Source of the DNA: Actinomycetota bacterium
GTDB lineage: Bacteria > Actinomycetota > Acidimicrobiia > Acidimicrobiales > MedAcidi-G1
NCBI GenBank assembly: GCA_014381745.1
Contig: JACNLA010000030.1
Location: forward strand, 1 to 47,198
Reading direction: 5' to 3'
DNA: 47,198 bases
Shown: positions 24,166-39,562 of the stretch, piece after piece
How positions within the stretch are numbered: the stretch's first letter is position 1
Layout: every line of letters starts with the position of its first letter
The notes under the pieces: generated by a model
What the model saw: the letters and a program-made list of their open reading frames with translations, nothing else
What the model was told of the DNA's origin: nothing
Databases searched by the model: none
Position numbers and translations under genes: made by a program

Positions 24166-24660
24166 ACTCGACGGTCTGTCGCCCTTCTTGTCGTCGCCCT
24201 TCTCCTAACCACGTCATGTGGGTCCGGATCGGACCGGTCCGAGAGCCCCGTGGCCGCTCCGACCGTGACATGGGCCACCTACCCGGATTGGCTGGTCGGT
24301 GTGCAGTGGTCGGTGGTGAGCCTCAAGGTTGATGGTGAGACCCTCCTTCCTCCTGATGGAGCCGATGTCCACGTCACCTTCGAGTCGACCGGTCGGCTGT
24401 GGGGGAACCTCGGCTGCAACCGGTTTGACACCGCCTGGTTCGGTAATGGCGAGCATCCCGACGAGATTGGGATTGCCTGGACAGAGATGGGTTGTGCCGA
24501 CGCGGAGGACTGGTTTGAGGTCGCCTACCTGCTGGGCAGCGCCTATCAAGAAGGCTGGCACCCGGTGGCGAGAGACGAGGGGGGCGGCTCGGTTGAACTG
24601 GAGACCCCTGCCGGACTGATCGTATTAGCCAAGGCCGGCGGCTCCGGCGTAGGCGGGTAG
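24154..24660 (+). CDS. META (HslJ-like) domain lipoprotein
   Basis: This 168-residue exported lipoprotein has a signal ending in the lipobox LLLTTSCGS (Cys at 22). The mature part has the META domain pattern: [33 protein letters not shown] (the Gly-x-x-Gly-Cys-Asn-Arg-Phe core) and [25 protein letters not shown]. Two Cys are placed to pair. META-domain proteins are poorly understood envelope proteins linked to stress. The start is GTG 24154 or TTG 24160, inside a tandem duplication. The 3' end overlaps the convergent acdS gene by 36 bases. Confidence 0.82.
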
Positions 24661-25644
24661 AGCCGGCTGGCCGCCGAGGTGGGCGTACAGCACCTTTGAA
24701 CCCGGTGGAATCTGGCCGGTCTTCACCAGGTCGATAAGCCCGGCCATGGACTTCCCCTCGTAGACAGGGTCGGTGAGCATGCCCTCGGTTCGGGCCGCCA
24801 GGTGGATGGCGTCGATGGTTTGCTGGTCGGGAACCCCATAGGCGGGGCCCTCGTAGCCGGCCAGGACCGTGATCTCGTCTTCTCTGAGAGAACGTCCGAC
24901 CCCAATGCGCCCGGCCGTGTCGTTGGCTATCCGTGTCACCTGGTCGACGGTCTGTTCCAGCGTGCCTGAAGCGTCGATGCCGAAGATCCGCCTATCTCCC
25001 CGCCCCTCAAGAGCGAAGCCCGCGACCATGCCGGCGTGTGTTGACCCTGTCACCGTGCACACGATCACATGGTCGAAGAACACGTCGTGTTCAGCCTCCT
25101 GGGCTGCGACCTCGCGGGCCCAGTTGGCGAAGCCCAGGCCACCAAGTGGGTGGTCCGATGCACCGGCCGGAATCGCATACGGCTTCCCCCCTGTCGCTTC
25201 CACCGATTCCAGGGCCGCCTTCCAGCTGTCCCGGATTCCGATGTCGAACCCCGCCGGGTCCATCCGGATGTCGCCGCCGAGTATCCGGGTGAGTTGGATG
25301 TTGCCGACCTTGTCGTATGCCAACTCGGGCCAGTCGACCCAGCCCTCCTGAACGGTCACGGCACCGAGGCCCAGGTGGCGTGCCACGCCGGTGACCTGCC
25401 TCGTGTGGTTGGACTGGACCCCACCGATTGACACGAGCGTGTCGCATCCCAGTTCGAGGGCATCGGCAACCAGGTACTCCAACTTGCGGACCTTGTTGCC
25501 GCCGAAGGCGATTCCCGAGTTGCAGTCCTCGCGCTTGGCCCAGACCTCGACATCACCACCGAGCGCTTCGCTGAGCCGTGGCAGCGGGTGGACCGGTGAT
25601 GGTCCGAACAACAGCGGCGTACGGGGGAAGTCGTCAAGGCTCAC
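24625..25644 (-). CDS. acdS: 1-aminocyclopropane-1-carboxylate deaminase
   Basis: A PLP enzyme that opens the cyclopropane ring of ACC to give 2-oxobutyrate and ammonia. The 339-residue protein follows the AcdS pattern throughout: [40 protein letters not shown] with PLP Lys51, [13 protein letters not shown] with the nucleophilic Ser78, and [12 protein letters not shown]. The residues that separate ACC deaminase from D-cysteine desulfhydrase are of the deaminase type: Glu296 (VYEGKS) and Leu323 (YAHLGG), equivalent to the known Glu295/Leu322 pair. It starts with GTG and has GGAG upstream. It could also act on other D-amino acids. Confidence 0.92.
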
Positions 25645-25715: not shown

Positions 25716-25729
25716 TGTAAGCGTTTTCA
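25716..25729 (+). promoter_or_regulatory. LacI-type operator before the GH13 gene
   Basis: TGTAAGCGTTTTCA is a near-palindrome around the central CG typical of LacI/GalR-family operators. It lies about 50 bases before the start of the alpha-glucosidase and is the exact reverse complement of the site at 38661-38674. Confidence 0.7.
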
Positions 25730-25779
25730 TATATGGTTCGCCTACTTCACCTTTGGATCGACACGACGGGCAGGAACCG

Positions 25780-27393
25780 ATGCCGCAACAAGCAGTAGGT
25801 AGTCGCACCGCTGTCAGCAGCAGCATCGACGCCAGGCCCTGGTGGCACGACAGAGTCGGGTACGAGATCTACATCAGGTCATTTGCCGACTCCGACGGTG
25901 ACGGCATCGGCGACCTGGCCGGGGTTACCGACAAACTGGACTACCTGTCAGACCTTGGCATCGACTTCATCTGGGTCACGCCCTTCTATCCGTCTCCGAT
26001 GGCCGACTGGGGATACGACGTAGCCGACTTCTGCGGTGTGGATCCTGCATTCGGATCCCTGGGGGATCTGGATCGTCTGGTTGAAGAGGCCCATGGTCGT
26101 TCCATGCGCGTGGTGATCGACATCGTCCCGAACCACACCAGCCACCGGCATGCGTGGTTTCGGGAGGCCCTTGCCGACCCGAACGGACCGTTTCGCGACT
26201 ACTACATCTGGCGCGACCCGGCACCTGACGGTGGGCCCCCCAACAACTGGGTCGGTTACTTCGGTGGTCCGGCGTGGACCCTCGACGAAGCCTCGGGCCA
26301 GTACTACCTGCACCTGTTCCTACCGGAGCAACCCGACCTGAACTGGCGCAACCCGGCCGTCCACGAGGAGTTCGACGGGATCATCCGGTTCTGGCTGGAC
26401 CGCGGCGTCGACGGTTTCAGGATCGACGTGGCGGGAGGCCTCGTAAAGGATGCCGACCTCCGCTCCAACCCCGAGATCGGCGTCTGGGACCCAGCCGGAA
26501 CCCGGTGGGAACAATGGGAGGCCTTCGAACACCTCTTCGACGTGTTCCAGCCGGAGAGTCTTGAGATCTTCCGGAGGTGGCGTGCGATAGTCGACGAGTA
26601 CGGCGCCTGGCTGATGGGCGAGACCTACACCCTTGAACCCGAGGGACTGGCAAGGCTGGTTCCCGGTGACGGTCTCCACAGTGGGTTCTGGTTTGAGCCC
26701 ATGCACATCGACTGGGATGTAGACCAGATCAGGAAGGCGCTTGTTCCACCTGCCGAACTGCTGGGCGACAGGCTGCTCTGGGCAGCTAGCAGCCACGACA
26801 TGCCGAGGTCGCCGACACACTTTGGCGGTGGCGACCAGGGTCGTGCCCGGACCCTCGCCCTCAACGTGTTGTTCCTCTGCCTGCCGGGCGTGCCCGTGCT
26901 CTATCAGGGAGAAGAACTCGGTCTGGTCGACGGCACTGTTTCGCCCTCAGCCAAGCTGGATCCCGTTGGGCCCGACGGCGATGTGGCCGCAGGCCGCGAT
27001 GGTTGTCGAACCCCGATGCCGTGGAGGCCCGGCGAAACGAACGGGTTCACCGACGGAACCCCGTGGTTGTCCAGTAGTCAGCGGGATGGGCACGAGACCG
27101 CTGAGGTCCAGGCGGTGGATGCAGGGTCGTGGTACGACCAGTACAGGTCTCTTCTGGCCGCAAAGAGAGAAATAGGCCCTCTGACCGGCGAAGCCGTCCA
27201 GTGGGATGACGACGGCGTTGGGCCTGTTATCCGCTATCGCCGAGGCCCAGTGAGCGTCGCTGCCAACGTTTCCGACGGACCTGTGACCGTCTATGTGGGT
27301 GATTCGGCTGGCCTCGTGTTCAAGACAGTTGGCGTTGTCCACGTCGACGGGCGGGTCGAGCTGCCGGCTCACGGTGCCGCGATCTGGATGTAG
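25780..27393 (+). CDS. GH13 alpha-glucosidase (oligo-1,6-glucosidase type)
   Basis: This 537-residue cytoplasmic GH13 enzyme hydrolyses alpha-glucosidic bonds of small imported sugars. It has WWHDRVGYEIYIRSFADSDGDGIGDL at the N terminus, the conserved IDIVPNHTS, the nucleophile in VDGFRIDVAG, the acid/base Glu in WLMGETYTL and the third carboxylate in SSHDMPR. No signal peptide is present, as suits a partner of an importer. ATG 25780 is chosen because AGGAA stands before it; the frame is open to 25753. A LacI-type operator lies upstream and the LacI gene follows. Confidence 0.92.
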   Translation: MPQQAVGSRTAVSSSIDARPWWHDRVGYEIYIRSFADSDGDGIGDLAGVTDKLDYLSDLGIDFIWVTPFYPSPMADWGYDVADFCGVDPAFGSLGDLDRLVEEAHGRSMRVVIDIVPNHTSHRHAWFREALADPNGPFRDYYIWRDPAPDGGPPNNWVGYFGGPAWTLDEASGQYYLHLFLPEQPDLNWRNPAVHEEFDGIIRFWLDRGVDGFRIDVAGGLVKDADLRSNPEIGVWDPAGTRWEQWEAFEHLFDVFQPESLEIFRRWRAIVDEYGAWLMGETYTLEPEGLARLVPGDGLHSGFWFEPMHIDWDVDQIRKALVPPAELLGDRLLWAASSHDMPRSPTHFGGGDQGRARTLALNVLFLCLPGVPVLYQGEELGLVDGTVSPSAKLDPVGPDGDVAAGRDGCRTPMPWRPGETNGFTDGTPWLSSSQRDGHETAEVQAVDAGSWYDQYRSLLAAKREIGPLTGEAVQWDDDGVGPVIRYRRGPVSVAANVSDGPVTVYVGDSAGLVFKTVGVVHVDGRVELPAHGAAIWM

Positions 27394-27492
27394 CGATGTG
27401 CACAGCGAATGGCCGATTCTGCGTCTGTCTGTTGTCATTGCCTCCGTGGGCACCACCGGTCGCAGGGTGTCAGACTCAACGAAGTGACAAGC

Positions 27493-28536
27493 ATGCCTGT
27501 TGACGAATCAAGGTCAGAGCCAGCTGTCCGGGCCCGAGCCGGGATAGAAGACGTCGCTCTGGCGGCCGGTGTCTCAGTCGCCACGGTCAGCCGGGCCATT
27601 CGTGGACTACCGAACGTGGCGGTGGCGACACGGGAGCGTGTCTTGGCCGTGGCCGCCGAGCTCCGGTATCAGGCCGACCCCGCAGCGGCGAGGCTGGCTG
27701 CTGGGTCGACCAGGACCGTCGCCGTCGGCGTCCCCGATCCCGCCACCTGGTTCTTTGCAAAGGTCGTGGGAGGAATCGAGCGCAAGCTCCTGGCGGCTGG
27801 TTATGACCTCCTGCTCTCCGGTATTCCCGACGCGGCACACCGGAGCCGGTTTCTCTACATGAACGCCCCGGGTGGACGGCGCTGTGATGCCTCCATCCTC
27901 GTCAATGTGGCCCTTGTCCCCGAAGAGGCCGGCGAGGCAGTTGCCGATGGCCACCGCCTCGTGACCGTCGGCTTCCGGTATGAGGGCTTTTCGTCGGTAA
28001 CGATCGACAATGTCACGGCCGCCAGCCGTGCCGTGGAGCACCTCATCTCCCTCGGGCACCGGCGCATAGGCCTGATGGGGATGGTGATGGACAACGCAAT
28101 GAACTTTGTCGTTCCCCCGATGCGCCGTCAGGGCTACCTTAGGGCCCACGAAGCCGCTGGTCTCCAGGTGGATCCTGGTATCGAGTCGGTGGCTAACAGC
28201 ACATCTGACGCATCCCGTGTTATCGGAAGGACAATGTTGGATAGCCCCGATCGCCCTTCAGCGGTCTTTGCCATGTCAGATGAACAGGCCTTCGGGGTGA
28301 TGCTGGCAGCCCAGGACCTCGGGTTGAACGTTCCCGAAGATCTGTCTGTGGTCGGTGTTGACGACCATGATCAGAGTGAGCTCATCGGCCTCACCACGGT
28401 TCGCCAGGGGGTGGATGAGCTCGGTGCCATGGCCGCTGAGTTGCTGCTCGAAGCCATAGAAGGTGGCACTGTCAGACATGTTGAGGTTCCCACCGAGTTG
28501 ATCCTGCGGTCTTCAACGGCGCCCCGGCGGAGTTGA
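27493..28536 (+). CDS. LacI family transcriptional regulator
   Basis: This repressor of about 347 residues has an N-terminal helix-turn-helix and hinge (GIEDVALAAGVSVATVSRAIRGLPNVAVATRERVLAVAAELRYQ) and a periplasmic-binding-protein-like sugar domain (VAVGVPDPATWFFAKVVGGIE, then ISLGHRRIGLMGM and VFAMSDEQAFGVMLAAQDLG). It most likely binds the three operators at 25716, 28587 and 38661 and controls the sugar regulon around it. The start may be ATG 27493 or GTG 27484, the latter seven bases behind CAGACT. Confidence 0.93.
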   Translation: MPVDESRSEPAVRARAGIEDVALAAGVSVATVSRAIRGLPNVAVATRERVLAVAAELRYQADPAAARLAAGSTRTVAVGVPDPATWFFAKVVGGIERKLLAAGYDLLLSGIPDAAHRSRFLYMNAPGGRRCDASILVNVALVPEEAGEAVADGHRLVTVGFRYEGFSSVTIDNVTAASRAVEHLISLGHRRIGLMGMVMDNAMNFVVPPMRRQGYLRAHEAAGLQVDPGIESVANSTSDASRVIGRTMLDSPDRPSAVFAMSDEQAFGVMLAAQDLGLNVPEDLSVVGVDDHDQSELIGLTTVRQGVDELGAMAAELLLEAIEGGTVRHVEVPTELILRSSTAPRRS

Positions 28537-28572
28537 TTCACCGGGTTCTTGTTGACACGGCCGCCGCTCTCA

Positions 28573-28600
28573 TGTAAACCTTTTCCTGAAAGCGTTTACA
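28573..28600 (+). promoter_or_regulatory. LacI-type operator region before the binding-protein gene
   Basis: TGAAAGCGTTTACA (28587-28600) is a good LacI-family operator. Directly before it lies TGTAAACCTTTTCC (28573-28586), a poorer copy, so the outer arms TGTAAAC and GTTTACA form a wider inverted repeat. The site is 100 bases before the start codon, in the only long gap upstream of the transporter genes. Confidence 0.7.
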
Positions 28601-28699
28601 TTCGTGTTTCCGACCGGCGCAGCCGCAGGCCCTCAGAGGTCGGCCTGCGTCGGCATGGCAGTTGTCCGACTGTCGGAGGCAACCCTCGGAGGGAGAACC

Positions 28700-31360
28700 G
28701 TGAAGAGCAGACTCGTACCAATCCTCAGCGCAGTCCTTGCGCTGACCCTCGTTGCTTCCGCATGCGGTAGCGACGATGACGGTGATGCAGCACCGGCTGC
28801 AACCACTGCAGCTGTTGCGGCGACTACCGCCGCACCCGCTGCAGCGGCGACTACCGCCGCACCTGCGGCCACGACAGCCGCACCGGCACCCGAAGACGAC
28901 GCGCTGCCCCTCGAGGGCACGTCGGTGACTGTGTTTGGTCCTGAGAGTTCTGATGAGGAGGCTGGTGCGTTCCAGGATGCGTTGGATGTTCTGGCTGAGC
29001 GGACTGGTATCGAGATCACCTATACGGGTGCTCGTGATGCTTCTGATCAGATCAACGCGCAGGCTGCTGGCGGTAACCCGCCTGACATCTTCGTGTTCCC
29101 CCAGCCGGGCAAGTTGGCTGACTTTGCTCGTGACGGACACCTGGTGGCTTTGCCTTCCGGTGTAGACGCTGCGGTGAGTGAGCACTGGTCTGATGCGTGG
29201 ACTGCCTTTGGTGATGTTGATGGCACCCAGTACGGCATTCCGACCAAGTCGGATCTGAAGTCTCTTGTCTGGTATCAGCCAGCCAAGTTCGCCGAGAAGG
29301 GCTACGCGGTTCCTGAAACCCTTACCGAGTTCGTGATCCTGGCTGGAACGATGATCGCCAACGGTGACACGCCGTTCTGTATCGGCATCGAGTCGGGTCC
29401 TGCCACTGGTTGGACCTTCACCGACTGGGTCGAGGACATCATGTTGCGTCTCTTCGACGTCGAGGTCTATGACCAGTGGGTGTCTGGTGAGCTGCCGTTC
29501 TCCTCGCCTCAGGTCACCGAGGCGTGGACCCAGATTCTCAACATCTGGAACACGCCGGGCATGGTGTACGCCTCTGGTGGTTCGATCGCTGCGACGCCGT
29601 TCGGCGACAACGGTCAGCCCCTCGTTGACGGCGACTGCATGATGCACAGGCAGGCCTCGTTCTACGCGGCGTTCCTGCCTGAGGGCACGGCCTTTGCTGA
29701 TGGTTCACCTGACGCTGTCGACACGTTCTACTTCCCGTCTGCACGTGGTGACCGTCCGGTTCTGGGTGCTGGAACCTTGGTTGGTGCGTTCCGTGATGCC
29801 CCCGAGGTCTGGGAGGTCATGACGTACCTGGGTTCATCTGAGTACGCCGAGGTTCGCCAGACGGCTCAGACCGCCCGCAAGGGTGGCGGCCTGTCGGGCT
29901 TCTTGTCGGGTGCAATGAATCAGGACCCGGGCGTCTACCAGCCGCTCGAGCAGTCATTCCTGGAGATCCTCCAGACCGCTGACGTGGTTCGCTTCGATGC
30001 CTCTGACCTGATGCCCGCAGCTGTTGGTGCAGGAACCTTCTGGACAGAGGGCACAGCAGCAGTTAACGGCGACAAGACCATCGCCGAGGCCCTCGCAGAC
30101 ATCGACGCCTCATGGCCCGATCGTGATCCGATAGCGCTGCCCCTCGAGGGCACGTCGGTGACTGTGTTTGGTCCTGAGAGTTCTGATGAGGAGGCTGGTG
30201 CGTTCCAGGATGCGTTGGATGTTCTGGCTGAGCGGACTGGTATCGAGATCACCTATACGGGTGCTCGTGATGCTTCTGATCAGATCAACGCGCAGGCTGC
30301 TGGCGGTAACCCGCCTGACATCTTCGTGTTCCCCCAGCCGGGCAAGTTGGCTGACTTTGCTCGTGACGGACACCTGGTGGCTTTGCCTTCCGGTGTAGAC
30401 GCTGCGGTGAGTGAGCACTGGTCTGATGCGTGGACTGCCTTTGGTGATGTTGATGGCACCCAGTACGGCATTCCGACCAAGTCGGATCTGAAGTCTCTTG
30501 TCTGGTATCAGCCAGCCAAGTTCGCCGAGAAGGGCTACGCGGTTCCTGAAACCCTTACCGAGTTCGTGATCCTGGCTGGAACGATGATCGCCAACGGTGA
30601 CACGCCGTTCTGTATCGGCATCGAGTCGGGTCCTGCCACTGGTTGGACCTTCACCGACTGGGTCGAGGACATCATGTTGCGTCTCTTCGACGTCGAGGTC
30701 TATGACCAGTGGGTGTCTGGTGAGCTGCCGTTCTCCTCGCCTCAGGTCACCGAGGCGTGGACCCAGATTCTCAACATCTGGAACACGCCGGGCATGGTGT
30801 ACGCCTCTGGTGGTTCGATCGCTGCGACGCCGTTCGGCGACAACGGTCAGCCCCTCGTTGACGGCGACTGCATGATGCACAGGCAGGCCTCGTTCTACGC
30901 GGCGTTCCTGCCTGAGGGCACGGCCTTTGCTGATGGTTCACCTGACGCTGTCGACACGTTCTACTTCCCGTCTGCACGTGGTGACCGTCCGGTTCTGGGT
31001 GCTGGAACCTTGGTTGGTGCGTTCCGTGATGCCCCCGAGGTCTGGGAGGTCATGACGTACCTGGGTTCATCTGAGTACGCCGAGGTTCGCCAGACGGCTC
31101 AGACCGCCCGCAAGGGTGGCGGCCTGTCGGGCTTCTTGTCGGGTGCAATGAATCAGGACCCGGGCGTCTACCAGCCGCTCGAGCAGTCATTCCTGGAGAT
31201 CCTCCAGACCGCTGACGTGGTTCGCTTCGATGCCTCTGACCTGATGCCCGCAGCTGTTGGTGCAGGAACCTTCTGGACAGAGGGCACAGCAGCAGTTAAC
31301 GGCGACAAGACCATCGCCGAGGCCCTCGCAGACATCGACGCCTCATGGCCCGCGGGCTGA
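28700..31360 (+). CDS. Sugar ABC transporter binding lipoprotein with two identical tandem binding domains
   Basis: This 886-residue protein is about twice the length of a normal family 1 solute-binding protein. It begins with a lipoprotein signal (lipobox ASAC, Cys at 22) and an Ala/Thr-rich linker to about residue 66. Two ligand-binding domains follow (about 68-473 and 479-884) that are identical in residues and bases, joined by the short linker DRDPI. Each domain looks like the alpha-glucoside-binding AglE type (SVTVFGPESSDEEAG, GNPPDIFVFPQPG, YGIPTKSDLKSLVWY). GGAGGGA precedes GTG 28700. The permease genes follow after a strong hairpin. Confidence 0.9.
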   Translation: MKSRLVPILSAVLALTLVASACGSDDDGDAAPAATTAAVAATTAAPAAAATTAAPAATTAAPAPEDDALPLEGTSVTVFGPESSDEEAGAFQDALDVLAERTGIEITYTGARDASDQINAQAAGGNPPDIFVFPQPGKLADFARDGHLVALPSGVDAAVSEHWSDAWTAFGDVDGTQYGIPTKSDLKSLVWYQPAKFAEKGYAVPETLTEFVILAGTMIANGDTPFCIGIESGPATGWTFTDWVEDIMLRLFDVEVYDQWVSGELPFSSPQVTEAWTQILNIWNTPGMVYASGGSIAATPFGDNGQPLVDGDCMMHRQASFYAAFLPEGTAFADGSPDAVDTFYFPSARGDRPVLGAGTLVGAFRDAPEVWEVMTYLGSSEYAEVRQTAQTARKGGGLSGFLSGAMNQDPGVYQPLEQSFLEILQTADVVRFDASDLMPAAVGAGTFWTEGTAAVNGDKTIAEALADIDASWPDRDPIALPLEGTSVTVFGPESSDEEAGAFQDALDVLAERTGIEITYTGARDASDQINAQAAGGNPPDIFVFPQPGKLADFARDGHLVALPSGVDAAVSEHWSDAWTAFGDVDGTQYGIPTKSDLKSLVWYQPAKFAEKGYAVPETLTEFVILAGTMIANGDTPFCIGIESGPATGWTFTDWVEDIMLRLFDVEVYDQWVSGELPFSSPQVTEAWTQILNIWNTPGMVYASGGSIAATPFGDNGQPLVDGDCMMHRQASFYAAFLPEGTAFADGSPDAVDTFYFPSARGDRPVLGAGTLVGAFRDAPEVWEVMTYLGSSEYAEVRQTAQTARKGGGLSGFLSGAMNQDPGVYQPLEQSFLEILQTADVVRFDASDLMPAAVGAGTFWTEGTAAVNGDKTIAEALADIDASWPAG
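28901..30119 (+). repeat. First copy of a 1219-bp tandem repeat inside the binding-protein gene
   Basis: From GCGCTGCCCCTCGAGG to CATGGCCCG this block recurs at an offset of exactly 1233 bases (411 codons), with no difference found at the positions compared. It covers the whole binding domain but not the signal or linker. A 14-base unique spacer (30120-30133) separates the copies. Confidence 0.92.
30134..31352 (+). repeat. Second copy of the 1219-bp tandem repeat
   Basis: Same block and orientation as 28901-30119. It ends eight bases before the end of the gene, where the sequence departs into CGGGCTGA and the stop codon. Off-frame ORFs in the two copies are also identical, so silent positions agree as well. 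Confidence 0.92.
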
Positions 31361-31407
31361 GGTAGGCACGAAGACCTGGCCTCAGATTCCCTCGACCAGG
31401 TCTAGTG

Positions 31408-31445
31408 ACCGGGGTGTCGACCGAGAAATCGGTCGGCACCCCGGT
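31408..31445 (+). terminator. Strong hairpin between the binding-protein and permease genes
   Basis: A 17-pair stem (one G-T pair) with a GAAA loop is formed by 31408-31424 and 31429-31445, followed by GTCGTTTTC. It lies 47 bases past the binding-protein stop. It probably acts as a partial terminator or as protection of the upstream mRNA end, giving more binding protein than permease. Confidence 0.65.
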
Positions 31446-31507
31446 GTCGTTTTCACTTGTGACACTCGGTGGGGAGACGCTCGTGTCTATCGGCAAGACT
31501 GTTTGAC

Positions 31508-33391
31508 ATGGAAGCCCTGACCGGTGCCCTTTGGGGGATTCTCTCTGCCATTGGCCTGAGCGTCCTGCTGTTCGTCGGGGCTAACAGGTTGTTCGACCTG
31601 ATCGTCGACAGGTGGCGGCTGTTTCTGGGCCTGCTCGGTGCCCTGTCCGGAGCGGCCTTCTTTGGCATTCTGGCCGGCAACCGTGTTCTGGACGGCTCCA
31701 GCCTGAGGTGGGTAGGTGTAGGAGCGCTGCTCTTCGCCACAATGGCGGTTCTGCCGGAACTGCTTGCCGATCGTCGTCTCCGGGTGGCGACCGGTGTGCT
31801 TGCTGGTCTGGGTGTCGGGTCAGTCGTGGCCCGAGCCGTAGATTCCTCAGTGAGGCCGATCGTGTCAACGAGGGACGTGTTGGTCCCGGTCGGAATTGCC
31901 GTCGCTCTTTATCTGGCGGTGGCACTGAGGCGCGGCCGGATCCGTCCGGGTGGAGTCCTCGTGGTGGTCGCGCTCGCCTGGGTGGTTGGCACCTGGCTGC
32001 TCGGTGACGTGGGCGGGGGTTCGGCGACGGCGATGGCCGTGGCGGTACTTGTTCCGTTCACCCTGGTCGGTGCTGCACTTGGATCCGGTGAACAGAGGTC
32101 GCGAGTACGGCGCTACGACCTGCAGCGAAAGACGAGGGTTGGTGCCTTTCTGGGGCCAGCCATGTTCTTCGTCATACTCGGCCTCGTCATACCCCTTCTT
32201 CGGACCATCTACCTATCCCTCCACGGCTCCAAGGGCAGGGTTTGGGTAGGGCTCAAGAACTACGGAGATGTCCTCGCCAACAAGAAGAGCCTCGACCTTG
32301 AGGACTGGGCCAACATCTTCGGCAGCCGCCTTACCCATCTCGGCATCGCACTGCTTGTCTTCGGATTGCTTGCGGGGCTCTTGATCGGACGTCGCCGCGG
32401 TCGTCTGCTGGAACCAACTGCCAGCTCAATAGGTCCGGTCTCAGCAGGTGTGTTGCTTCTCATGTTCGCGGTGTTTGCCAGCCTGCGTGGCACGGTGATG
32501 AACAACCTCTGGTGGGTAATCGTGGTCACGCTGCTTTCCACGGTGCTGGGGCTGGCTGCCGCCGTCCTTGCCGACCGTGCCAAGTTTGAATCGGTGGCCA
32601 AGAGCCTCATCTTCATGCCCATGGCGATCTCGTTTGTTGGCGCGGGGATCATCTGGCGCTTCATGTACATCGCGCGTCCACCGCAGAAGCCCCAGACCGG
32701 CCTGTTCAACGCCATCTGGGTGGGGCTGGGAACCATGGCTCCGTCGGGAACCGGACAGTTCACGGTGATTGCCGTGCTCGGAGCGGCCACGGTGGTCCTG
32801 GCTGGGCTGGCGGTATTCGGGATCCGCCGCCGGCAATCGGGGATCACCATCGGCTCGGCATTCGTCGCCCTGCCCGTGCTGTGGTTGCTCTACCGGATCC
32901 TGGGACCGGGGCTTGGCGGGGTTGAGACCGGACCGCTGGGGGATCCAATCGGCAAGCCGATCCTCTTCGTTCAGGAGGGTCCGTTCAACAACGTCTGGCT
33001 GATGGTCGTCCTGATCTGGATCCAGACCGGGTTCGCAATGGTCATCCTGTCTGCGGCCATCAAGGCTGTTCCTGTCGATCTGATCGAGGCTGCACGGGTT
33101 GACGGCGCCACAGACGGGCAGGTGTTCTTCCACGTGACGCTTCCGACGATCGTGCCGACCATCAGCGTGATCGTCACGGCTCTGATCGTCCTCGTCATGA
33201 AGGTGTTTGACATCGTCAGGGTCATGACCAACGGGAACTTCGGGACACAGGTCATCGCCAACGAGATGTGGCAGCGGGCCTTCACCGAGTTCAACCTGGG
33301 TCTGGGCTCGGCCCTAGCTGTTGTTCTGTTCCTCTCGGTCGTACCCGTGATGGGTATGAACATCCGTCGTATGCAGCGGAGCGAGGTCTGA
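31508..33391 (+). CDS. Sugar ABC transporter permease (AglF-like) with long N-terminal membrane extension
   Basis: A membrane subunit of the importer. The C-terminal part has the permease signature with the EAA loop IEAARVDGATDGQVFFHVTLPTIVPT, which docks the ATPase. The length is 627 residues against about 300-340 for usual family members. The first 200 residues are six or more extra hydrophobic segments, and two further hydrophobic pairs are inserted before the signature region (around residues 285-330 and 415-460). ATG 31508 lacks a clear ribosome-binding site. It is followed by the second permease three bases later. Confidence 0.88.
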   Translation: MEALTGALWGILSAIGLSVLLFVGANRLFDLIVDRWRLFLGLLGALSGAAFFGILAGNRVLDGSSLRWVGVGALLFATMAVLPELLADRRLRVATGVLAGLGVGSVVARAVDSSVRPIVSTRDVLVPVGIAVALYLAVALRRGRIRPGGVLVVVALAWVVGTWLLGDVGGGSATAMAVAVLVPFTLVGAALGSGEQRSRVRRYDLQRKTRVGAFLGPAMFFVILGLVIPLLRTIYLSLHGSKGRVWVGLKNYGDVLANKKSLDLEDWANIFGSRLTHLGIALLVFGLLAGLLIGRRRGRLLEPTASSIGPVSAGVLLLMFAVFASLRGTVMNNLWWVIVVTLLSTVLGLAAAVLADRAKFESVAKSLIFMPMAISFVGAGIIWRFMYIARPPQKPQTGLFNAIWVGLGTMAPSGTGQFTVIAVLGAATVVLAGLAVFGIRRRQSGITIGSAFVALPVLWLLYRILGPGLGGVETGPLGDPIGKPILFVQEGPFNNVWLMVVLIWIQTGFAMVILSAAIKAVPVDLIEAARVDGATDGQVFFHVTLPTIVPTISVIVTALIVLVMKVFDIVRVMTNGNFGTQVIANEMWQRAFTEFNLGLGSALAVVLFLSVVPVMGMNIRRMQRSEV

Positions 33392-33393
33392 CC

Positions 33394-34356
33394 GTGTTGA
33401 CCACCAAAGAGACCGTGAGCACTACCGTCGGCTCGGTGGACAGGGTCGGCCGTGTTGTGTACGGCTTCTTGAGGTCTGTTCCGACATGGGTTCTGTGGCT
33501 ACTGGTCATCGTCTGGACGGTGCCGACCGGCAGCCTGTTCCTAAACTCGTTTCGGACCCGCGATGCTCAGAGGGGAAGCGGCTGGTGGGCGTCAGTCGGC
33601 GAGGGTGGCTGGACGTTTGACAACTACATAGATGTCCTCTCCTCGTCGCGACAGACCGGTGGCCTGGCAACCGCCGTCGTCAACTCGTTCGCTATCGCTA
33701 TTCCGGCCACGGTGATTCCGATTGCCATTGCCGCCATGGCTGCCTACGCATTTGCCTGGATTCCGTTCCGGGGCCGCGAGTGGTTGTTCATCCTCACCGT
33801 CTCGCTGCTGGCCCTGCCGAATCAGGTCGCCCTGCTTCCGCTCCTGCAACTGTTCGCCGGTGGCGTCCACTGGACGGTTCCGGGTTCGGAGACCGTTGTG
33901 ACCCTGTTCCCGGACCTCAGCCTGGCCGGCACGGCGACCGCCGTGTGGCTCACACATACGTCGTTCGCACTGCCGTTCGCCATCTTCCTGCTCCACAACT
34001 ACATAGCGTCGCTTCCGGCCGAGCTGTTTGAGGCCGCACGTATCGACGGTGCAGACCACTTCACGATCTTCTGGCGCCTGGTGGTGCCCCTCTCAGTGCC
34101 TGCCCTGGCGGCGTTCACGATCTTCCAGTTTCTCTGGACCTGGAACGACTACCTGGTTGCCCTGACGATGCTGGGAGCCAACGGATCCGCCTATCCGGCA
34201 ACCATCAAGATCGCTTCGATGGCAGGCGAGTTCGGCCGGCTCGAGCACCTCCTGTCGGCTGGGGCGTTCGTGCAGGCGGGTGTGCCGCTGCTGGTGTTCT
34301 TCGCCCTGCAACGGTTCTTTGTAAGGGGTCTCCTGGCTGGGTCGGTCAAGTCGTGA
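33394..34356 (+). CDS. Sugar ABC transporter permease (AglG-like)
   Basis: The second membrane subunit, 320 residues with six main helices. The EAA loop is FEAARIDGADHFTIFWRLVVPLSVPALAAF, followed by FLWTWNDYLVALTML, a pattern of MalG/AglG-type permeases. A periplasmic insert (VHWTVPGSETVVTLFPDLS) precedes the EAA region. The start is GTG 33394, directly after the stop of the first permease. Confidence 0.93.
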   Translation: MLTTKETVSTTVGSVDRVGRVVYGFLRSVPTWVLWLLVIVWTVPTGSLFLNSFRTRDAQRGSGWWASVGEGGWTFDNYIDVLSSSRQTGGLATAVVNSFAIAIPATVIPIAIAAMAAYAFAWIPFRGREWLFILTVSLLALPNQVALLPLLQLFAGGVHWTVPGSETVVTLFPDLSLAGTATAVWLTHTSFALPFAIFLLHNYIASLPAELFEAARIDGADHFTIFWRLVVPLSVPALAAFTIFQFLWTWNDYLVALTMLGANGSAYPATIKIASMAGEFGRLEHLLSAGAFVQAGVPLLVFFALQRFFVRGLLAGSVKS

Positions 34357-34411
34357 GGCGTTCCGACTCACCAGTTTGTCCGGTCATGCCCATACAACAT
34401 GGAGGTAACCG

Positions 34412-35320
34412 GTGAGCGACAACCTTGTCAATGCAGGAAGGCGTGATCTGCCTGGTGGCCTGGCATCTGTAGGACCACTTGCACTAGGCCTGTGGCGGTT
34501 CACGACCACCGACCTCGACGACGCCATCGCAATCGTCGACACGGCGCTCGATCTGGGGATGAACCTGGTCGACAACGCCGATGTCTACGGCTTCGACTGG
34601 GGTGGGTCGGGTTTCGGCGCATGCGAGGACCTGCTCGGAAGGGTGCTGGCTGCCCGCCCTGACCTTCGCGACAGGATGGTCCTGGCCACAAAGGGGGGCA
34701 TCCGACCTGCAGTTCCCTACGACTCCAGCACCCGGTACCTGAGAGAGGCCTGCGAAGCCTCGCTTCAGCGGATGGGAGTCGACCGGATAGACCTCTACCA
34801 GATTCACCGGCCTGACAGTTACGCCCACCCGGGCGAGGTTGCGGCAACCCTCGATGCTCTCGTGGATGAGGGCAAGGTTGCGGCTGTCGGGGTGTCCAAC
34901 CACACACCCAGCCAGGTGGCAGCACTGAGAGCCCATCTGAAGGCGCCGCTGGCGACGATGCAGCCTGAGTTCTCTGCCGCCCATCTGGACCCGATGCGTG
35001 ACGGCACCCTCGACCAGTGCGCTGAAACCGGGATGGTCCCGCTGGCCTGGAGCCCCCTGGCCGGCGGTCGCCTCGCAACCGGAGTAGATCTGGCACCCGA
35101 CCTGTTGTCTGTCCTGGATGGCCTTGCGGAGCGTGAGTCGGTGGACCGGGCGACGGTCGCAGTTGCGTTCGTGCTGGCCCACCCGACGGCCCCGGTGGCG
35201 ATCCTCGGCACCCAGCAACCAGCTCGCCTCGAGGCCCAGGCCAGGGCGTCAGCTATCAGGCTGGATCGCAACGACGTGTACTCCATTGTCCAGGCATCCG
35301 ACGGGGTTCCACTGCCTTGA
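34412..35320 (+). CDS. Aldo/keto reductase
   Basis: This 302-residue cytoplasmic NAD(P)H-dependent reductase has the catalytic tetrad Asp54, Tyr59 (NLVDNADVYG), Lys94 (LATKGG) and His132 (YQIHRPD), and a C-terminal segment ILGTQQPARLEAQ for cofactor binding. The start is GTG 34412 with GGAGGT upstream, and the stop overlaps the next gene. In the known sulfoquinovose monooxygenase pathway an enzyme of this family (SmoB) reduces 6-oxo-glucose to glucose. The same role is possible here because an SsuD-like monooxygenase lies two genes downstream (inference). Confidence 0.9.
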   Translation: MSDNLVNAGRRDLPGGLASVGPLALGLWRFTTTDLDDAIAIVDTALDLGMNLVDNADVYGFDWGGSGFGACEDLLGRVLAARPDLRDRMVLATKGGIRPAVPYDSSTRYLREACEASLQRMGVDRIDLYQIHRPDSYAHPGEVAATLDALVDEGKVAAVGVSNHTPSQVAALRAHLKAPLATMQPEFSAAHLDPMRDGTLDQCAETGMVPLAWSPLAGGRLATGVDLAPDLLSVLDGLAERESVDRATVAVAFVLAHPTAPVAILGTQQPARLEAQARASAIRLDRNDVYSIVQASDGVPLP

Positions 35321-36411
35321 GCGAAACCCTCCGCTACGGCATCATCGGAACGGGGATGATGGGTGTCGAGCACATCAACAACCTCCTCGTTCTTGACGGC
35401 GTCGAGGTTGTTGCGATCTGTGATCCCGACACCGGCTCACTCGACACCGCCGGGACCCTCGTTCCCTCCGCAGCTTGTTTCGATGACCACCACTCGCTGC
35501 TCGACGCTGGTGGTCTTGACGCCCTGGTTGTCGCCACACCGAACATGACCCATGCGGATCTACTCCTGGATGTTGTCGACACGGGGCTACCGGTCCTTGT
35601 TGAAAAGCCTCTGTGCGCCACGGTCGCCGACTGCCACCGCGTGATCGAAGCGGCCGGGCCAGATGCCATGGTCTGGGTCGGTCTGGAGTATCGGTACATG
35701 CCGGCCATCGCCGGGCTCGTCGAGTCGGTGGCTGCGGGAACCGTCGGGCCGATTCGAATGGTCGCCATTCGCGAGCACCGGTTCCCGTTCCTGGAGAAGG
35801 TGGGTGACTGGAACCGCTTCAACAGCAACACCGGCGGGACGCTCGTCGAGAAGTGCTGCCACTTTTTTGACCTGATGAGCCTCATCACCGGAGCCGTACC
35901 CGTCAGGGTGATGGCGTCGGGAGCTCAGGATGTGAACCACCTGGATGAGAAATACGACGGGCAGGTACCTGACATCATCGACAACGCCTACGTAATCGTG
36001 GATTTTGACACCGGGGCACGCGGCATGTTGGACCTGTGCATGTTCGCTGAAGCAACCCGGAACCAGGAGGAGATCTCGGTGGTGGGTGACCTGGGCAAGG
36101 TTGAGGCACTCGTACCTGAGTCGGTGCTGCGCACCGGCATCAGAGGGCAGGATCAGATCGGCGACGTCCATGAGGTTCATGTCCAGAACCCCGACATCGG
36201 TTACCAGGGCCACCACCATGGCTCCTCCTACATAGAGCACACACGCTTCAGAGATGCCGTGCTTGCTGGCACGGGTCCCGAGAGTGGCCTGAACGAGGGA
36301 CTTTGGTCCGTGGCGGTAGGAGAAGCGGCACAGTTGTCTATTCAGGAGAGTCGTTTCGTGGATGTTGACGAGGTGATGATGAGCGGTAGAGCGGAGACCC
36401 GAAATGTCTGA
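35317..36411 (+). CDS. Gfo/Idh/MocA family oxidoreductase
   Basis: This 364-residue sugar dehydrogenase-like protein has an N-terminal Rossmann motif (YGIIGTGMMGVEHI), the EKP motif (LVEKPLCATVADC) with the catalytic Lys, GLEYRYMPA, and a C-terminal domain with GGTLVEKCCHFFDLMSLI carrying the conserved His. Members oxidise or reduce sugar or inositol hydroxyls with NAD(P). The TTG start overlaps the aldo/keto reductase stop by four bases and the stop overlaps the monooxygenase gene by eight, so the three proteins are translationally coupled. Substrate unknown. Confidence 0.9.
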   Translation: MSETLRYGIIGTGMMGVEHINNLLVLDGVEVVAICDPDTGSLDTAGTLVPSAACFDDHHSLLDAGGLDALVVATPNMTHADLLLDVVDTGLPVLVEKPLCATVADCHRVIEAAGPDAMVWVGLEYRYMPAIAGLVESVAAGTVGPIRMVAIREHRFPFLEKVGDWNRFNSNTGGTLVEKCCHFFDLMSLITGAVPVRVMASGAQDVNHLDEKYDGQVPDIIDNAYVIVDFDTGARGMLDLCMFAEATRNQEEISVVGDLGKVEALVPESVLRTGIRGQDQIGDVHEVHVQNPDIGYQGHHHGSSYIEHTRFRDAVLAGTGPESGLNEGLWSVAVGEAAQLSIQESRFVDVDEVMMSGRAETRNV

Positions 36412-37477
36412 AGGCCGACCAACCCCGGAGGTGGGTTGGTTCAGCGCCCTCTGTGACGACGACTACGAGTTTTTGGGGGTGCCGGAACCGAAGTTGAGAA
36501 GTTCCTGGGAGCACTGCCGCGACATCGTGCTCTGTGCCGAGGATCAGGGATTTGACAACATCCTGCTTCCCTCCGGCTACACCCTGGGCATAGACGCCAC
36601 CGGCTTCGCTGCCGGAATCGCCACACATACGGACCGGATTCGTCTGCTCCTGGCGGTCCGGACCGGTGAGGTCTGGCCACCCCAGTTAGCCCGTCAGATC
36701 GCCACGATCGACCAGATGGCCGGCGGTCGTCTCCGTGTGAACATCATCTCCAGCGACATGCCGGGCCAGAAGTTGGAATCAGAGGCCCGCTACCAGAGGA
36801 CCCGTGAGTACATGCAGGTCCTGCGTCAACTTCTGGACGGCCAGTCGGTCGACCATCACGGTGAGTTCCTGGACCTGGAGCTTGACCCACCGGGCGCGGT
36901 CACGGTTTCAGGGCGCTGTCCGCCGCTCTTCTTCGGAGGGTTCTCCGAGGCGGCGAAGGAGACAGCGGCAGCCGAGTGCGACGTCTTTCTGACATGGCCC
37001 GACACAGTCGATGCTGTTGCCGAAACTGTCGAGGACATGCGTGCCCGGGCCGCCAAGTTGGGCCGTTCCCTCACCTACGGGCTACGTAGCCATGTGATCG
37101 TCAGGGAGACAGAGGCCAACGCTCTGACTGCCGCACAGCATCTGGTCAGCAGACTGGATGACGATACGGGAGATGTAATCCGGGGAAGGTCGCTCGATTC
37201 CGTCTCGGTAGGTGTCGACCGTCAGACACAACTGCGCCAGATGTCTGATTCTGACGGCTTCGTCGAGGAGGGGCTGTGGACCGGGGTCGGGCGGGCCCGC
37301 AGTGGTGCAGGAGCGGCAATCGTCGGCGACCCGGATCAGGTGGTGGCGAAGCTGAACGCCTACCGTGAGGTCGGTATTGACGCTTTCATCCTCTCGGGCT
37401 ACCCACACATCGCCGAGTGCGAGTTGGTGGGAGAGCATGTGCTCAAACGGATTGGCCACGCACCTCTGGACATTTGA
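36404..37477 (+). CDS. FMN-dependent sulfonate monooxygenase-like protein (SsuD/SmoC type)
   Basis: This 357-residue luciferase-like monooxygenase is most like alkanesulfonate monooxygenase SsuD. The residues I recall as lining the SsuD sulfonate pocket all have counterparts: Asn113 (RVNIISSD), Trp198 (FLTWPD), Arg228 and His230 (GLRSHVIVRET), Arg299 (RARSGAGAA) and Tyr333 (LSGYPH). Such enzymes use reduced FMN and oxygen to cleave a C-S bond, releasing sulfite and an aldehyde. Its place at the end of a sugar-uptake operon, coupled to two sugar reductases, suggests a sulfosugar substrate. No flavin reductase gene is seen in the window. Confidence 0.85.
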   Translation: MSEGRPTPEVGWFSALCDDDYEFLGVPEPKLRSSWEHCRDIVLCAEDQGFDNILLPSGYTLGIDATGFAAGIATHTDRIRLLLAVRTGEVWPPQLARQIATIDQMAGGRLRVNIISSDMPGQKLESEARYQRTREYMQVLRQLLDGQSVDHHGEFLDLELDPPGAVTVSGRCPPLFFGGFSEAAKETAAAECDVFLTWPDTVDAVAETVEDMRARAAKLGRSLTYGLRSHVIVRETEANALTAAQHLVSRLDDDTGDVIRGRSLDSVSVGVDRQTQLRQMSDSDGFVEEGLWTGVGRARSGAGAAIVGDPDQVVAKLNAYREVGIDAFILSGYPHIAECELVGEHVLKRIGHAPLDI

Positions 37478-37484
37478 GTCGCCC

Positions 37485-38645
37485 TCAGGAGCGGATGGCC
37501 AGGTTCGTGGCGGGGTCGAAGAAGTGGAGCCGCTCGGTGTCCACGGCCAGATCAACCCGATCACCCGACCTGACAGAACTCCTCGGGTCCACCCGGGCAA
37601 TCATCAGCGCCTTGTCGTCAAGGTCATCGAGCACGTCCGGGTCGCCTGTATCCACCGACGGAGCATCCAGATGGAAGTGCACCAGAAGGTCTGATCCGAG
37701 TGCCTCGGTCAGCTCGGCTTCGACGGTGAGGCGTGGAAGGTCAGCGTTGGCCAGAGAGGCGTCCTCCATCGACTCAGGGCGAACGCCCACGACTATCTCG
37801 GCGCCGTCGTAGCCGGCAAGTGCCGGCTTTGTTTCCAGGACCCCGTCTGTCAAGGGGAGCTGGCTGTGGCCCAGATGGACCGTCCATGTTCCGTTGGCCA
37901 ACTCGAGGCGTGCCTCTCGGAGGTTCATCGCCGGTGCACCGATGAACCCGGCGACGAAGAGGTTGTCCGGGGAGCCGTAGAGCACGGACGGCTCGTCGAT
38001 CTGTTGGAGTAGCCCGCCCTTGATGACAGCGACCCTGTCGCCCATGGTCATCGCCTCGACCTGATCGTGGGTCACGTAGAGGGTGGTGGCTGTGAGGCGG
38101 CGGTGGAGGCGGGCAATCTCGGCCCGCATCTGAACGCGGAGCTTGGCATCGAGGTTCGAGAGCGGTTCATCCATCAGGAACACCGCAGGGTCACGCACGA
38201 TCGCACGACCCATGGCCACTCGCTGGCGCTGGCCGCCCGAGAGTTGTGCGGGCTTGTTGTGGAGCAGTGACTCCAACTCCAAGATTCTGGCTGCTTCGCC
38301 TACCTTGGCTTCGATCTCGGCCTTGGGTAGGCCGGCAAGGCGCAGTGCGAAGCCGATGTTGCGGGCCACGTCCAGGTGCGGGTAGAGGGCGTAGTTCTGG
38401 AACACCATGGCCACGTTTCGGTCCTTGGGCTCAACGTCGTTCATTCGCTCGCCGGCGATCGTGAGCGTTCCCGATGTGATCGTCTCGAGGCCAGCGACCA
38501 TCCGAAGTGCCGTGGACTTGCCGCAACCTGAAGGCCCGACAAGAACAAGGAACTCGCCGTCGGCGATGTCGAGGCTGAGGTCGTGGATGGCCTGGAAGCC
38601 GTTCGGGTAGACCTTTTCCAGGTTCTGGAGGGAAACCTCAGCCAT
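37485..38645 (-). CDS. Sugar ABC transporter ATP-binding protein (UgpC/MsmK/AglK type)
   Basis: The ATPase of the importer, 386 residues. It has Walker A GPSGCGKST, the Q-loop VFQNYALYP, signature LSGGQRQRVAMGRAI, Walker B VFLMDEPLSNLDAK and the switch His in YVTHDQVEAMT. A C-terminal MalK-type regulatory domain follows (VGVRPESM). It is transcribed toward the rest of the operon. Its start ATG 38645 has AAGGAG upstream, and a LacI-type operator lies 15 bases further, so it answers to the same repressor. Confidence 0.95.
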   Translation of the reverse strand: MAEVSLQNLEKVYPNGFQAIHDLSLDIADGEFLVLVGPSGCGKSTALRMVAGLETITSGTLTIAGERMNDVEPKDRNVAMVFQNYALYPHLDVARNIGFALRLAGLPKAEIEAKVGEAARILELESLLHNKPAQLSGGQRQRVAMGRAIVRDPAVFLMDEPLSNLDAKLRVQMRAEIARLHRRLTATTLYVTHDQVEAMTMGDRVAVIKGGLLQQIDEPSVLYGSPDNLFVAGFIGAPAMNLREARLELANGTWTVHLGHSQLPLTDGVLETKPALAGYDGAEIVVGVRPESMEDASLANADLPRLTVEAELTEALGSDLLVHFHLDAPSVDTGDPDVLDDLDDKALMIARVDPRSSVRSGDRVDLAVDTERLHFFDPATNLAIRS

Positions 38646-38660
38646 CAACGCTCCTTGCCA

Positions 38661-38674
38661 TGAAAACGCTTACA
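38661..38674 (-). promoter_or_regulatory. LacI-type operator between the ATPase and dioxygenase genes
   Basis: On the minus strand this reads TGTAAGCGTTTTCA, identical to the operator at 25716-25729. It lies in the divergent gap between the ABC ATPase (start 38645) and the PhyH gene (start 38756) and could control both. Confidence 0.7.
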
Positions 38675-38755
38675 AGACATACAACTGTAGTGCTGGTGGG
38701 TTGGTCCTGACGAGGCCGGTGTCCACTAGCCTCCGACACCAATGGGGAGCCTTCC

Positions 38756-39562
38756 ATGTTGAGCACTGGTTCGCTCGTGGACCGCTACGAGCGGGACGGC
38801 TTCGTTTCGCCCGTGCGGATCATTTCCGAGGCCGAGGTGGGCCCGCACCGACGGGCGCTCGAGTGGGCCGAGGCTGAGGTCGGTCCGCTTCACTACCAGT
38901 ACAAGATGCACACGGTGCTCACCTCGCCCCTTGAACTGGCAACCCATCCGACGATGCTGGACGCCGTCGAGGAGCTGCTCGGGCCCGACATCCTCCTCTA
39001 CAACGTCGTCTACATAGTGAAGGAACCCGGGTCAGCGGCCCACGTGGCATGGCACCAGGACCTCACCTACTGGGGGCTGGACTCGGACCTCCAGGTCTCG
39101 GCATGGCTGGCCCTCTCACCTGCGACCGCCGACAGCGGCGCCATGATGATGCTCCCGGGCACCCACACCGGTGGCCGACTCACACACAGCGTCGGAACCG
39201 GCGGCTCGAACGTGCTCGACAACGACCAATATGTGGACGGTGTCGACGAAGCAGCCGCGGTGTTGTGTCCGTTGGCGCCCGGCGAGGCCTCCTTCCACCA
39301 CGGCTGGACCCTGCACGCCTCACGTCCCAACGAGAGCGATGACAGGCGGATAGGTCTCAACATCCAGTACCTGCATCCGAGCGTGAGGCAGACCCTTCAC
39401 GACATGGACACGGCGATGGTTGTCCGTGGAACGGACGCCTACGGGAACTTCGGAACCGACATCCCGGCGACGGGGAACCTGGAACCTAAGGCGTTGGCCC
39501 GCCGCGCCGAACAGGATGCCCTGATCAAGGGCACATACGTGACGGCCCTGGACCCGACCTGA
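38756..39562 (+). CDS. Phytanoyl-CoA dioxygenase (PhyH) family protein
   Basis: This 268-residue Fe(II)/2-oxoglutarate oxygenase has the facial triad His100-x-Asp102 (VAWHQDLTYW) and His187 (WTLHASRPN), and Arg198 (DDRRIGLNIQ) for 2-oxoglutarate. MMMLPGTHTGG is a common family segment. The substrate is unknown; bacterial members hydroxylate many small molecules. GGGGAG precedes the ATG, and a TAGCCT box (38727-38732) would give a short leader. It is divergent from the sugar ATPase and shares its operator-bearing gap. Confidence 0.88.
   Translation: MLSTGSLVDRYERDGFVSPVRIISEAEVGPHRRALEWAEAEVGPLHYQYKMHTVLTSPLELATHPTMLDAVEELLGPDILLYNVVYIVKEPGSAAHVAWHQDLTYWGLDSDLQVSAWLALSPATADSGAMMMLPGTHTGGRLTHSVGTGGSNVLDNDQYVDGVDEAAAVLCPLAPGEASFHHGWTLHASRPNESDDRRIGLNIQYLHPSVRQTLHDMDTAMVVRGTDAYGNFGTDIPATGNLEPKALARRAEQDALIKGTYVTALDPT

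Follow-up and report, generated by a model that had tools for sequence, protein, structure and literature searches.

A probable sulfoquinovose-lysis (sulfo-SMO) regulon in an uncultured marine Acidimicrobiia-type actinobacterium

Three overlapping enzyme genes

A stretch of actinobacterial DNA 47,198 nucleotides long (the window; gene coordinates are positions in it), from a genome of 2.19 Mb that is 96% complete, carries in a row the genes of an aldo/keto reductase (AKR), a Gfo/Idh/MocA-fold protein and a monooxygenase. These genes very probably belong to a regulon for the lysis of sulfoquinovose (SQ), an abundant sulfur sugar of plants and algae, by the sulfo-SMO pathway. A first-pass annotation had proposed an actinobacterial sulfo-SMO operon at this place, and sequence, tree, fold and gene neighbourhood all back that proposal. 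The named relatives of the host, MedAcidi-G1 and MedAcidi-G2B among them, belong to the marine Acidimicrobiales, which suggests an uncultured marine actinobacterium of the Acidimicrobiia type; the pathway is poorly documented in this bacterial group. The three enzyme genes are:

34412..35320, + strand: aldo/keto reductase, SmoB/SquF-like, predicted 6-dehydroglucose reductase (PF00248)
35317..36411, + strand: predicted GH188 NAD+-dependent sulfoquinovosidase, SqgA-like, of Gfo/Idh/MocA fold (PF01408/PF02894)
36404..37477, + strand: predicted FMNH2-dependent sulfoquinovose monooxygenase, SmoC/SquD-like (PF00296; 357 aa)

All three open reading frames (ORFs) are intact, with Pfam E-values of 1e-22 to 1e-55, and they overlap by four and eight bases behind sugar permease genes, as first described. 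The AKR gene follows the second permease gene after a gap of 55 bp and has a GTG start with GGAGG upstream; the Gfo/Idh/MocA gene has a TTG start inside the TTGA stop of the AKR gene (4-base overlap), and the monooxygenase gene has an ATG start (8-base overlap). Because the first two genes start with GTG and TTG, the exact N-termini of their products are best taken as predictions. For each of the three enzymes the closest functionally named solved structure is an SQ-pathway protein (7olf/7oh2 for the monooxygenase, 8qc3/8qc2 for the Gfo/Idh/MocA protein and 7bc1 for the AKR).

The monooxygenase

Compared with all PDB sequences, the monooxygenase scores highest against 7olf (368 bits, 51% identity) and 7oh2 (363 bits, 50% identity), followed by MsuD (214 bits, 36% identity) and SsuD (211 bits, 37% identity). 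Both 7olf and 7oh2 were recognised as SmoC structures through their PDB titles, 'FMNH2-dependent monooxygenase for oxidative desulfurization of sulfoquinovose'. The six counterparts of SsuD sulfonate-pocket residues picked out in the first-pass annotation (N113, W198, R228, H230, R299 and Y333) are all matched by identical residues in SsuD, MsuD and the two SmoC structures, as established by alignment rather than by side-chain superposition, and are invariant in an alignment of 27 monooxygenase sequences; R297, A298, S300 and D20 are common to SmoC and differ in SsuD. An IQ-TREE phylogeny of 129 rows, in which SsuD and MsuD are the sole outside rows, places the protein inside the 7olf/7oh2 group, with support of 100/100 for the branches to SsuD/MsuD, and thus among desulfonating enzymes; its nearest kin within the SmoC group are from other marine actinobacteria, then from two Myxococcota-labelled bins. 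The best Foldseek match of the AlphaFold model (mean predicted local distance difference test score 86) is 7oh2. Since MsuD is tied within one unit of Z in VIA-align (40.6, against a top Z of 41.3 for 7oh2), comparison of the modelled fold cannot by itself separate SmoC from MsuD. Sequence, tree and fold together lend good support to the prediction of a SmoC-type FMNH2-dependent SQ monooxygenase.

A general alkanesulfonate desulfonase with the function of SsuD or MsuD, serving sulfur supply and unrelated to the adjoining sugar genes, would also account for the pocket residues, which are the same in SsuD and MsuD, and the best NCBIfam model is indeed alk_sulf_monoox (TIGR03565), though the score of 267.7 bits is far under the SsuD equivalog cut-off of 518.2. 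Such a function is nevertheless extremely improbable in view of the identities (50-51% to SmoC against 35-37% to SsuD/MsuD), the tree, the association with a sugar ATP-binding cassette (ABC) importer under LacI control and no Ssu importer, and the company that related genes keep. When 80 related loci were retrieved with the monooxygenase alone as query and neighbours were scored within 10 kb, 76 had this AKR (58 of them within 200 bp) and 47 had a GH188-type Gfo protein, so that the arrangement of the three genes is not due to chance. The neighbour maps were made by tblastn; in automated ORF clustering many genes were missed, displaced by the long antisense ORFs of GC-rich DNA such as this.

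SmoC proteins also occur in three bins labelled Myxococcales/Deltaproteobacteria (L029, L033 and L079; L-numbers denote related loci or bins examined for comparison), with 65-75% identity and nested among the actinobacterial ones in the tree. L029 and L033 have GH188 (69-70%) next to SmoC, and L079 has it at another place in its genome; the three bins represent either transfer or mis-binned contigs. The SmoC-like protein of Rhizobium sp. SL86 (L099, 10001-11041; 67% identity) is encoded in a 21-kb locus with no AKR or GH188 and possibly has a different desulfonation context.

The Gfo/Idh/MocA protein as a predicted sulfoquinovosidase

The first-pass annotation treated the Gfo/Idh/MocA protein as an added enzyme and reported no sulfoquinovosidase nearby. 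Both statements have to be revised, as the gene at 35317-36411 is itself predicted to encode one. The best PDB match of its product is 8zn9 (uncharacterised, 355 bits), followed by ArSqgA (8qc3, 336 bits) and FlSqgA (8qc2, 325 bits), and the next other family reaches 93 bits. The codes 8qc3 and 8qc2 are given as SqgA in the founding paper of family GH188 (PMC10755693), from which the catalytic and sulfonate-binding residues of ArSqgA were taken. At 50% identity to ArSqgA, the window protein has K97, Y125, E178, H182 and H300 in the positions of the NAD/sugar residues Lys107, Tyr136, Glu189, His193 and His321, and R155, L159 and K161 in those of the sulfonate-binding Arg166, Leu170 (through its backbone) and Lys172. 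E153 corresponds to a further ArSqgA glutamate (printed as Glu163; 164 when the numbering is anchored on Arg166). With all catalytic and sulfonate-binding residues present, the gene is assigned by sequence to the NAD+-dependent, SqgA-type sulfoquinovosidases of GH188. The SqgA scores and conserved residues rule out an additional dehydrogenase, and Leu159 rules out the Tyr-variant GH188 of PMC11465081. The lesson for annotation is that a 'dehydrogenase' beside SmoC can be a glycosidase.

The other type of sulfoquinovosidase, GH31, has no match to its catalytic domain (PF01055) in the 96%-complete genome, in a search that was positive in six control genomes. Across SmoC carriers the two families alternate: all six tested SmoC-carrying genomes of sphingomonads, Caulobacter and Rhizobium have GH31 and lack GH188, whereas among Acidimicrobiia GH31 exceeded the cut-off in one of 21 carriers tested, with a weak match, and GH188 is present somewhere in the genome of 15 of 17 carriers (mostly picked for lacking GH188 in the fetched locus). 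This pattern is the GH31/GH188 complementarity described in PMC10755693.

The aldo/keto reductase

The best match of the AKR, by sequence and by Foldseek, is the Agrobacterium tumefaciens protein of entries 7bby, 7bbz and 7bc1 (136 bits), presumably SmoB; the PDB title of 7bc1 names a reductase solved with NADPH and glucose. Escherichia coli YdhF follows closely (130 bits) and is tied in Z, so that the predicted assignment to SmoB rests mainly on gene position. The gene stands beside SmoC, and this co-location of SmoB and SmoC is the criterion used in a survey of sulfo-SMO clusters (PMC13372026); the sequence barely separates the protein from YdhF.

The importer genes and the LacI-type operators

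The surroundings of the enzyme genes, namely a LacI regulon, a GH13 alpha-glucosidase, an importer ATPase on the opposite strand and a duplicated binding protein, were left out of the first-pass annotation. These features are:

25716..25729: palindromic operator of LacI type, TGTAAGCGTTTTCA, before the GH13 gene
25753..27393, + strand: predicted GH13 alpha-glucosidase of the alpha-amylase family (PF00128, E 3.5e-106), in the same place in syntenic relatives
27409..28536, + strand: transcription regulator of the LacI family, which presumably acts on the three operators (PF00356, PF13377)
28587..28600: operator of LacI type, TGAAAGCGTTTACA, before the gene of the solute-binding protein
28604..31360, + strand: solute-binding protein of a sugar ABC importer (PF01547 in two stretches)
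31469..33391, + strand: long ABC sugar permease (640 aa; PF00528), kept upstream of the sulfo-SMO genes in relatives
33268..34356, + strand: ABC sugar permease, GlcU-like (PF00528)
37485..38648, - strand: ABC-importer ATPase of the UgpC/MalK type (NF008653, 463 bits, over cut-off)
38661..38674: operator of LacI type, TGAAAACGCTTACA, in the intergenic region from which the ATPase and PhyH genes diverge
38756..39562, + strand: PhyH-family Fe/2-oxoglutarate oxygenase (PF05721)

The palindrome TGAAANCGNTTACA, with at most one mismatch allowed, has three sites in the window, all exact, where 0.04 are expected, and a looser palindrome, TGNAANCGNTTNCA, has four sites in the entire genome of 2.19 Mb, of which three are at promoters of this locus. 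The three promoter operators therefore define a compact LacI-type regulon from about 25716 to 39562, which includes the GH13 gene, the importer ATPase and the PhyH oxygenase. The neighbouring LacI protein presumably binds all three. Equivalent operators precede the binding-protein gene in nine related loci (L034, L037, L040, L045, L063, L070, L075, L088 and L100) and lie 11 bp before the ATPase gene in L024 and L026; in many related loci they are found before the binding protein, ATPase or GH13 gene or in the GH188/AKR divergence.

The gene set of the sugar ABC importer is complete (binding protein, two permeases and ATPase), and the ATPase gene and SmoC converge in the window as in numerous relatives. 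The binding-protein ORF contains a perfect in-frame direct repeat of 1,219 bp (28901-30119 is identical to 30134-31352, with zero mismatches), which makes two fused binding domains. Since the repeats have no mismatch and the binding protein of relatives is a single copy of about 480 aa, the repeat suggests either an artefact of assembly or a duplication that happened very recently.

The GH13 protein has alpha-glucosidases/XgtA as its nearest solved structures and shows the ordinary glucose type of minus-1 subsite motifs, for which reasons it is read from its sequence as an alpha-glucosidase. A role as second sulfoquinovosidase is unsupported, judging by these motifs and not by a docked model. 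The gene is under the same type of operator here and in L034, L040 and L078, and it directly adjoins SmoC in L044 and L048. The whole operon (GH13, LacI and importer) might then serve mainly for the uptake of alpha-glucosides, with the SQ enzymes as a rarely used or decaying side branch; the canonical glucose subsite of GH13 under that operator, the perfect tandem duplication in the binding-protein gene and the distribution of SmoC within the genus (see below) fit such a role. It is unlikely, however, because the genes of all three SQ enzymes are intact, overlap at their translational junctions, have an order that is kept in distant Acidimicrobiia and encode proteins with 74-86% identity to the counterparts in two further species of the family.

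The nearest solved relative of the PhyH oxygenase is 6zyk (126 bits). A PhyH gene near SmoC is absent from the 80 related loci; as no positive link was found either, the protein is unsupported as an additional, dioxygenase-type desulfonase.

Distribution among relatives

Three Acidimicrobiia bins (L034, L037 and L040) have the order GH13, LacI, binding protein, permease, permease, AKR, GH188, SmoC, with the ATPase on the opposite strand, at 53-85% protein identity, and L041 and L043 have the same order with LacI not detected. Clusters outside the phylum are similar: plasmids of Rhizobium sp. SL42 and Ruegeria sp. THAF33 combine genes for Gfo/Idh/MocA, monooxygenase, AKR, flavin reductase (PF01613 in the SL42 cluster) and a tripartite ATP-independent periplasmic (TRAP) importer, and Sphingomonas paeninsulae has Gfo/Idh/MocA, LacI, AKR and monooxygenase together. 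The Gfo proteins of these clusters, when compared, are GH188-related.

Of 395 genomes sampled from the class, 72 have SmoC at E <= 1e-90, and of the 268 high-quality ones 59 do, or about a fifth; at E <= 1e-60 it is present in 14 of 48 sampled genomes of the family. This large and mostly uncultured group is thus probably a recycler of SQ sulfur.

The predicted pathway

Taken with the observed gene set, family placement, active-site residues, operator sites and synteny, the characterised homologues suggest by analogy a substrate, a chemistry and a ligand-dependent regulation for the host. The ABC importer would bring in SQ glycosides such as sulfoquinovosyl glycerol, from which GH188 with bound NAD+ would release free SQ through transient oxidation at C3. 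The SmoC-like monooxygenase would then use FMNH2 (reduced flavin mononucleotide) and O2 to cleave the C-S bond, yielding sulfite and 6-dehydroglucose, and the SmoB-like reductase would convert the latter to glucose with NAD(P)H. The LacI-family repressor would govern the three promoters, one of which would also drive the GH13 alpha-glucosidase.

Several observations weigh against this reading. The sequence matches of the binding protein include no SQ-binding protein and resemble general sugar binders; no flavin reductase is encoded in the window cluster, and the only PF01613 protein of the genome, 33% identical to that of the Rhizobium SL42 cluster, is on another contig; the six further species sampled from the genus all lack SmoC; for actinobacterial SmoC proteins the literature yielded no biochemical work; the GH13 alpha-glucosidase in the regulon suggests that the inducer, presumably bound by the LacI protein, is perhaps not SQ alone; and to these is added the closeness of the AKR to YdhF.

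Similarity to SQ binders is too low for the binding protein to point to a substrate, and GH188 enzymes act on both alpha- and beta-SQ glycosides (PMC10755693), so that the cluster could be thought to degrade another 6-sulfonated sugar, or several, such as sulfofucose or beta-linked SQ glycosides, and not sulfoquinovosyl glycerol. This is very unlikely, since the SqgA residues that read the hydroxyls and sulfonate of SQ are all conserved, the solved structures closest to the monooxygenase are those of SQ enzymes, and no other known sulfosugar is nearly as common as SQ. The placement of GH13 under the same type of operator, in the window as in L034, L040 and L078, and the gene order kept in several Acidimicrobiia are compatible with a broader salvage of glycosyl glycerols, in which one LacI switch and one importer would serve both alpha-glucosylglycerol (through GH13) and alpha-sulfoquinovosyl glycerol (through GH188 and SmoC/SmoB), both of them products of marine phototrophs and both convertible to glucose and glycerol; such a dual role is speculative and rather doubtful.

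The first-pass annotation had noted that no flavin reductase is nearby and had proposed that the gene set together with such a reductase be sought in related genomes: the gene set recurs in several Acidimicrobiia, but tblastn with the Rhizobium SL42 protein found a flavin reductase in none of the 80 related loci. Given this result and the location of the sole PF01613 protein on a different contig, FMNH2 must be supplied from outside the cluster, presumably by a flavin reductase encoded there; family PF03358 was not found in the genome. The sulfo-SMO cluster of Novosphingobium aromaticivorans is likewise without a flavin reductase of its own (PMC9594981). A molybdenum sulfite oxidase (PF00174) was not found in the genome; two TauE-type transporters are present, which are candidates for sulfite export.

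Comparison with known systems

In the sulfo-SMO pathway, also called sulfo-ASMO, of Agrobacterium tumefaciens (SmoA-B-C with an ABC importer) and N. aromaticivorans (SquD/SquF), as in the window, monooxygenase and AKR genes are side by side with a sugar importer. The window differs from both in being actinobacterial, in having GH188 in place of GH31 and no recognisable SQ binder, and in its LacI-operator regulon with GH13 and PhyH and no in-cluster flavin reductase. Its GH188 protein resembles SqgA of Arthrobacter and Flavobacterium, with NAD, sugar and sulfonate residues identical to those of ArSqgA, but whereas GH188 of the characterised Arthrobacter strain feeds sulfo-EMP glycolysis, that of the window shares one operon with SmoC. 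Sulfo-SMO clusters with GH188 enzymes have been described from Roseobacters (PMC10755693, 2023). The plasmid clusters of Ruegeria sp. THAF33 and Rhizobium sp. SL42 likewise unite GH188, monooxygenase and AKR, but with GntR, a TRAP importer and an in-cluster flavin reductase, where the window has LacI, an ABC importer and no such reductase.

Sulfo-SMO clusters were reported as frequent in aquatic Actinomycetota in June 2026 (PMC13372026), in the same phylum and by the same SmoB/SmoC criterion; the main text of that survey names neither Acidimicrobiia nor a GH188 or GH13 companion and describes no experiment on an actinobacterial member. A review of January 2026 still gives sulfo-SMO as alpha/beta-proteobacterial (PMC12890257), and in the literature searched the one paper that contains both 'sulfoquinovose' and 'Acidimicrobi' deals with a soil amendment. 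To call the actinobacterial cluster a new discovery would be too strong, as such clusters are published in PMC13372026 and GH188 in sulfo-SMO in PMC10755693. The core pathway is already known, and the importer, the LacI regulon and the GH13 companion are differences of arrangement.

Adjoining the regulon, the gene at 24625-25644 (- strand) has a strong match to 1-aminocyclopropane-1-carboxylate (ACC) deaminase (TIGR01274, 521 bits, over cut-off), in what is read as a marine bacterium; the substrate of its product may be D-cysteine or another compound.

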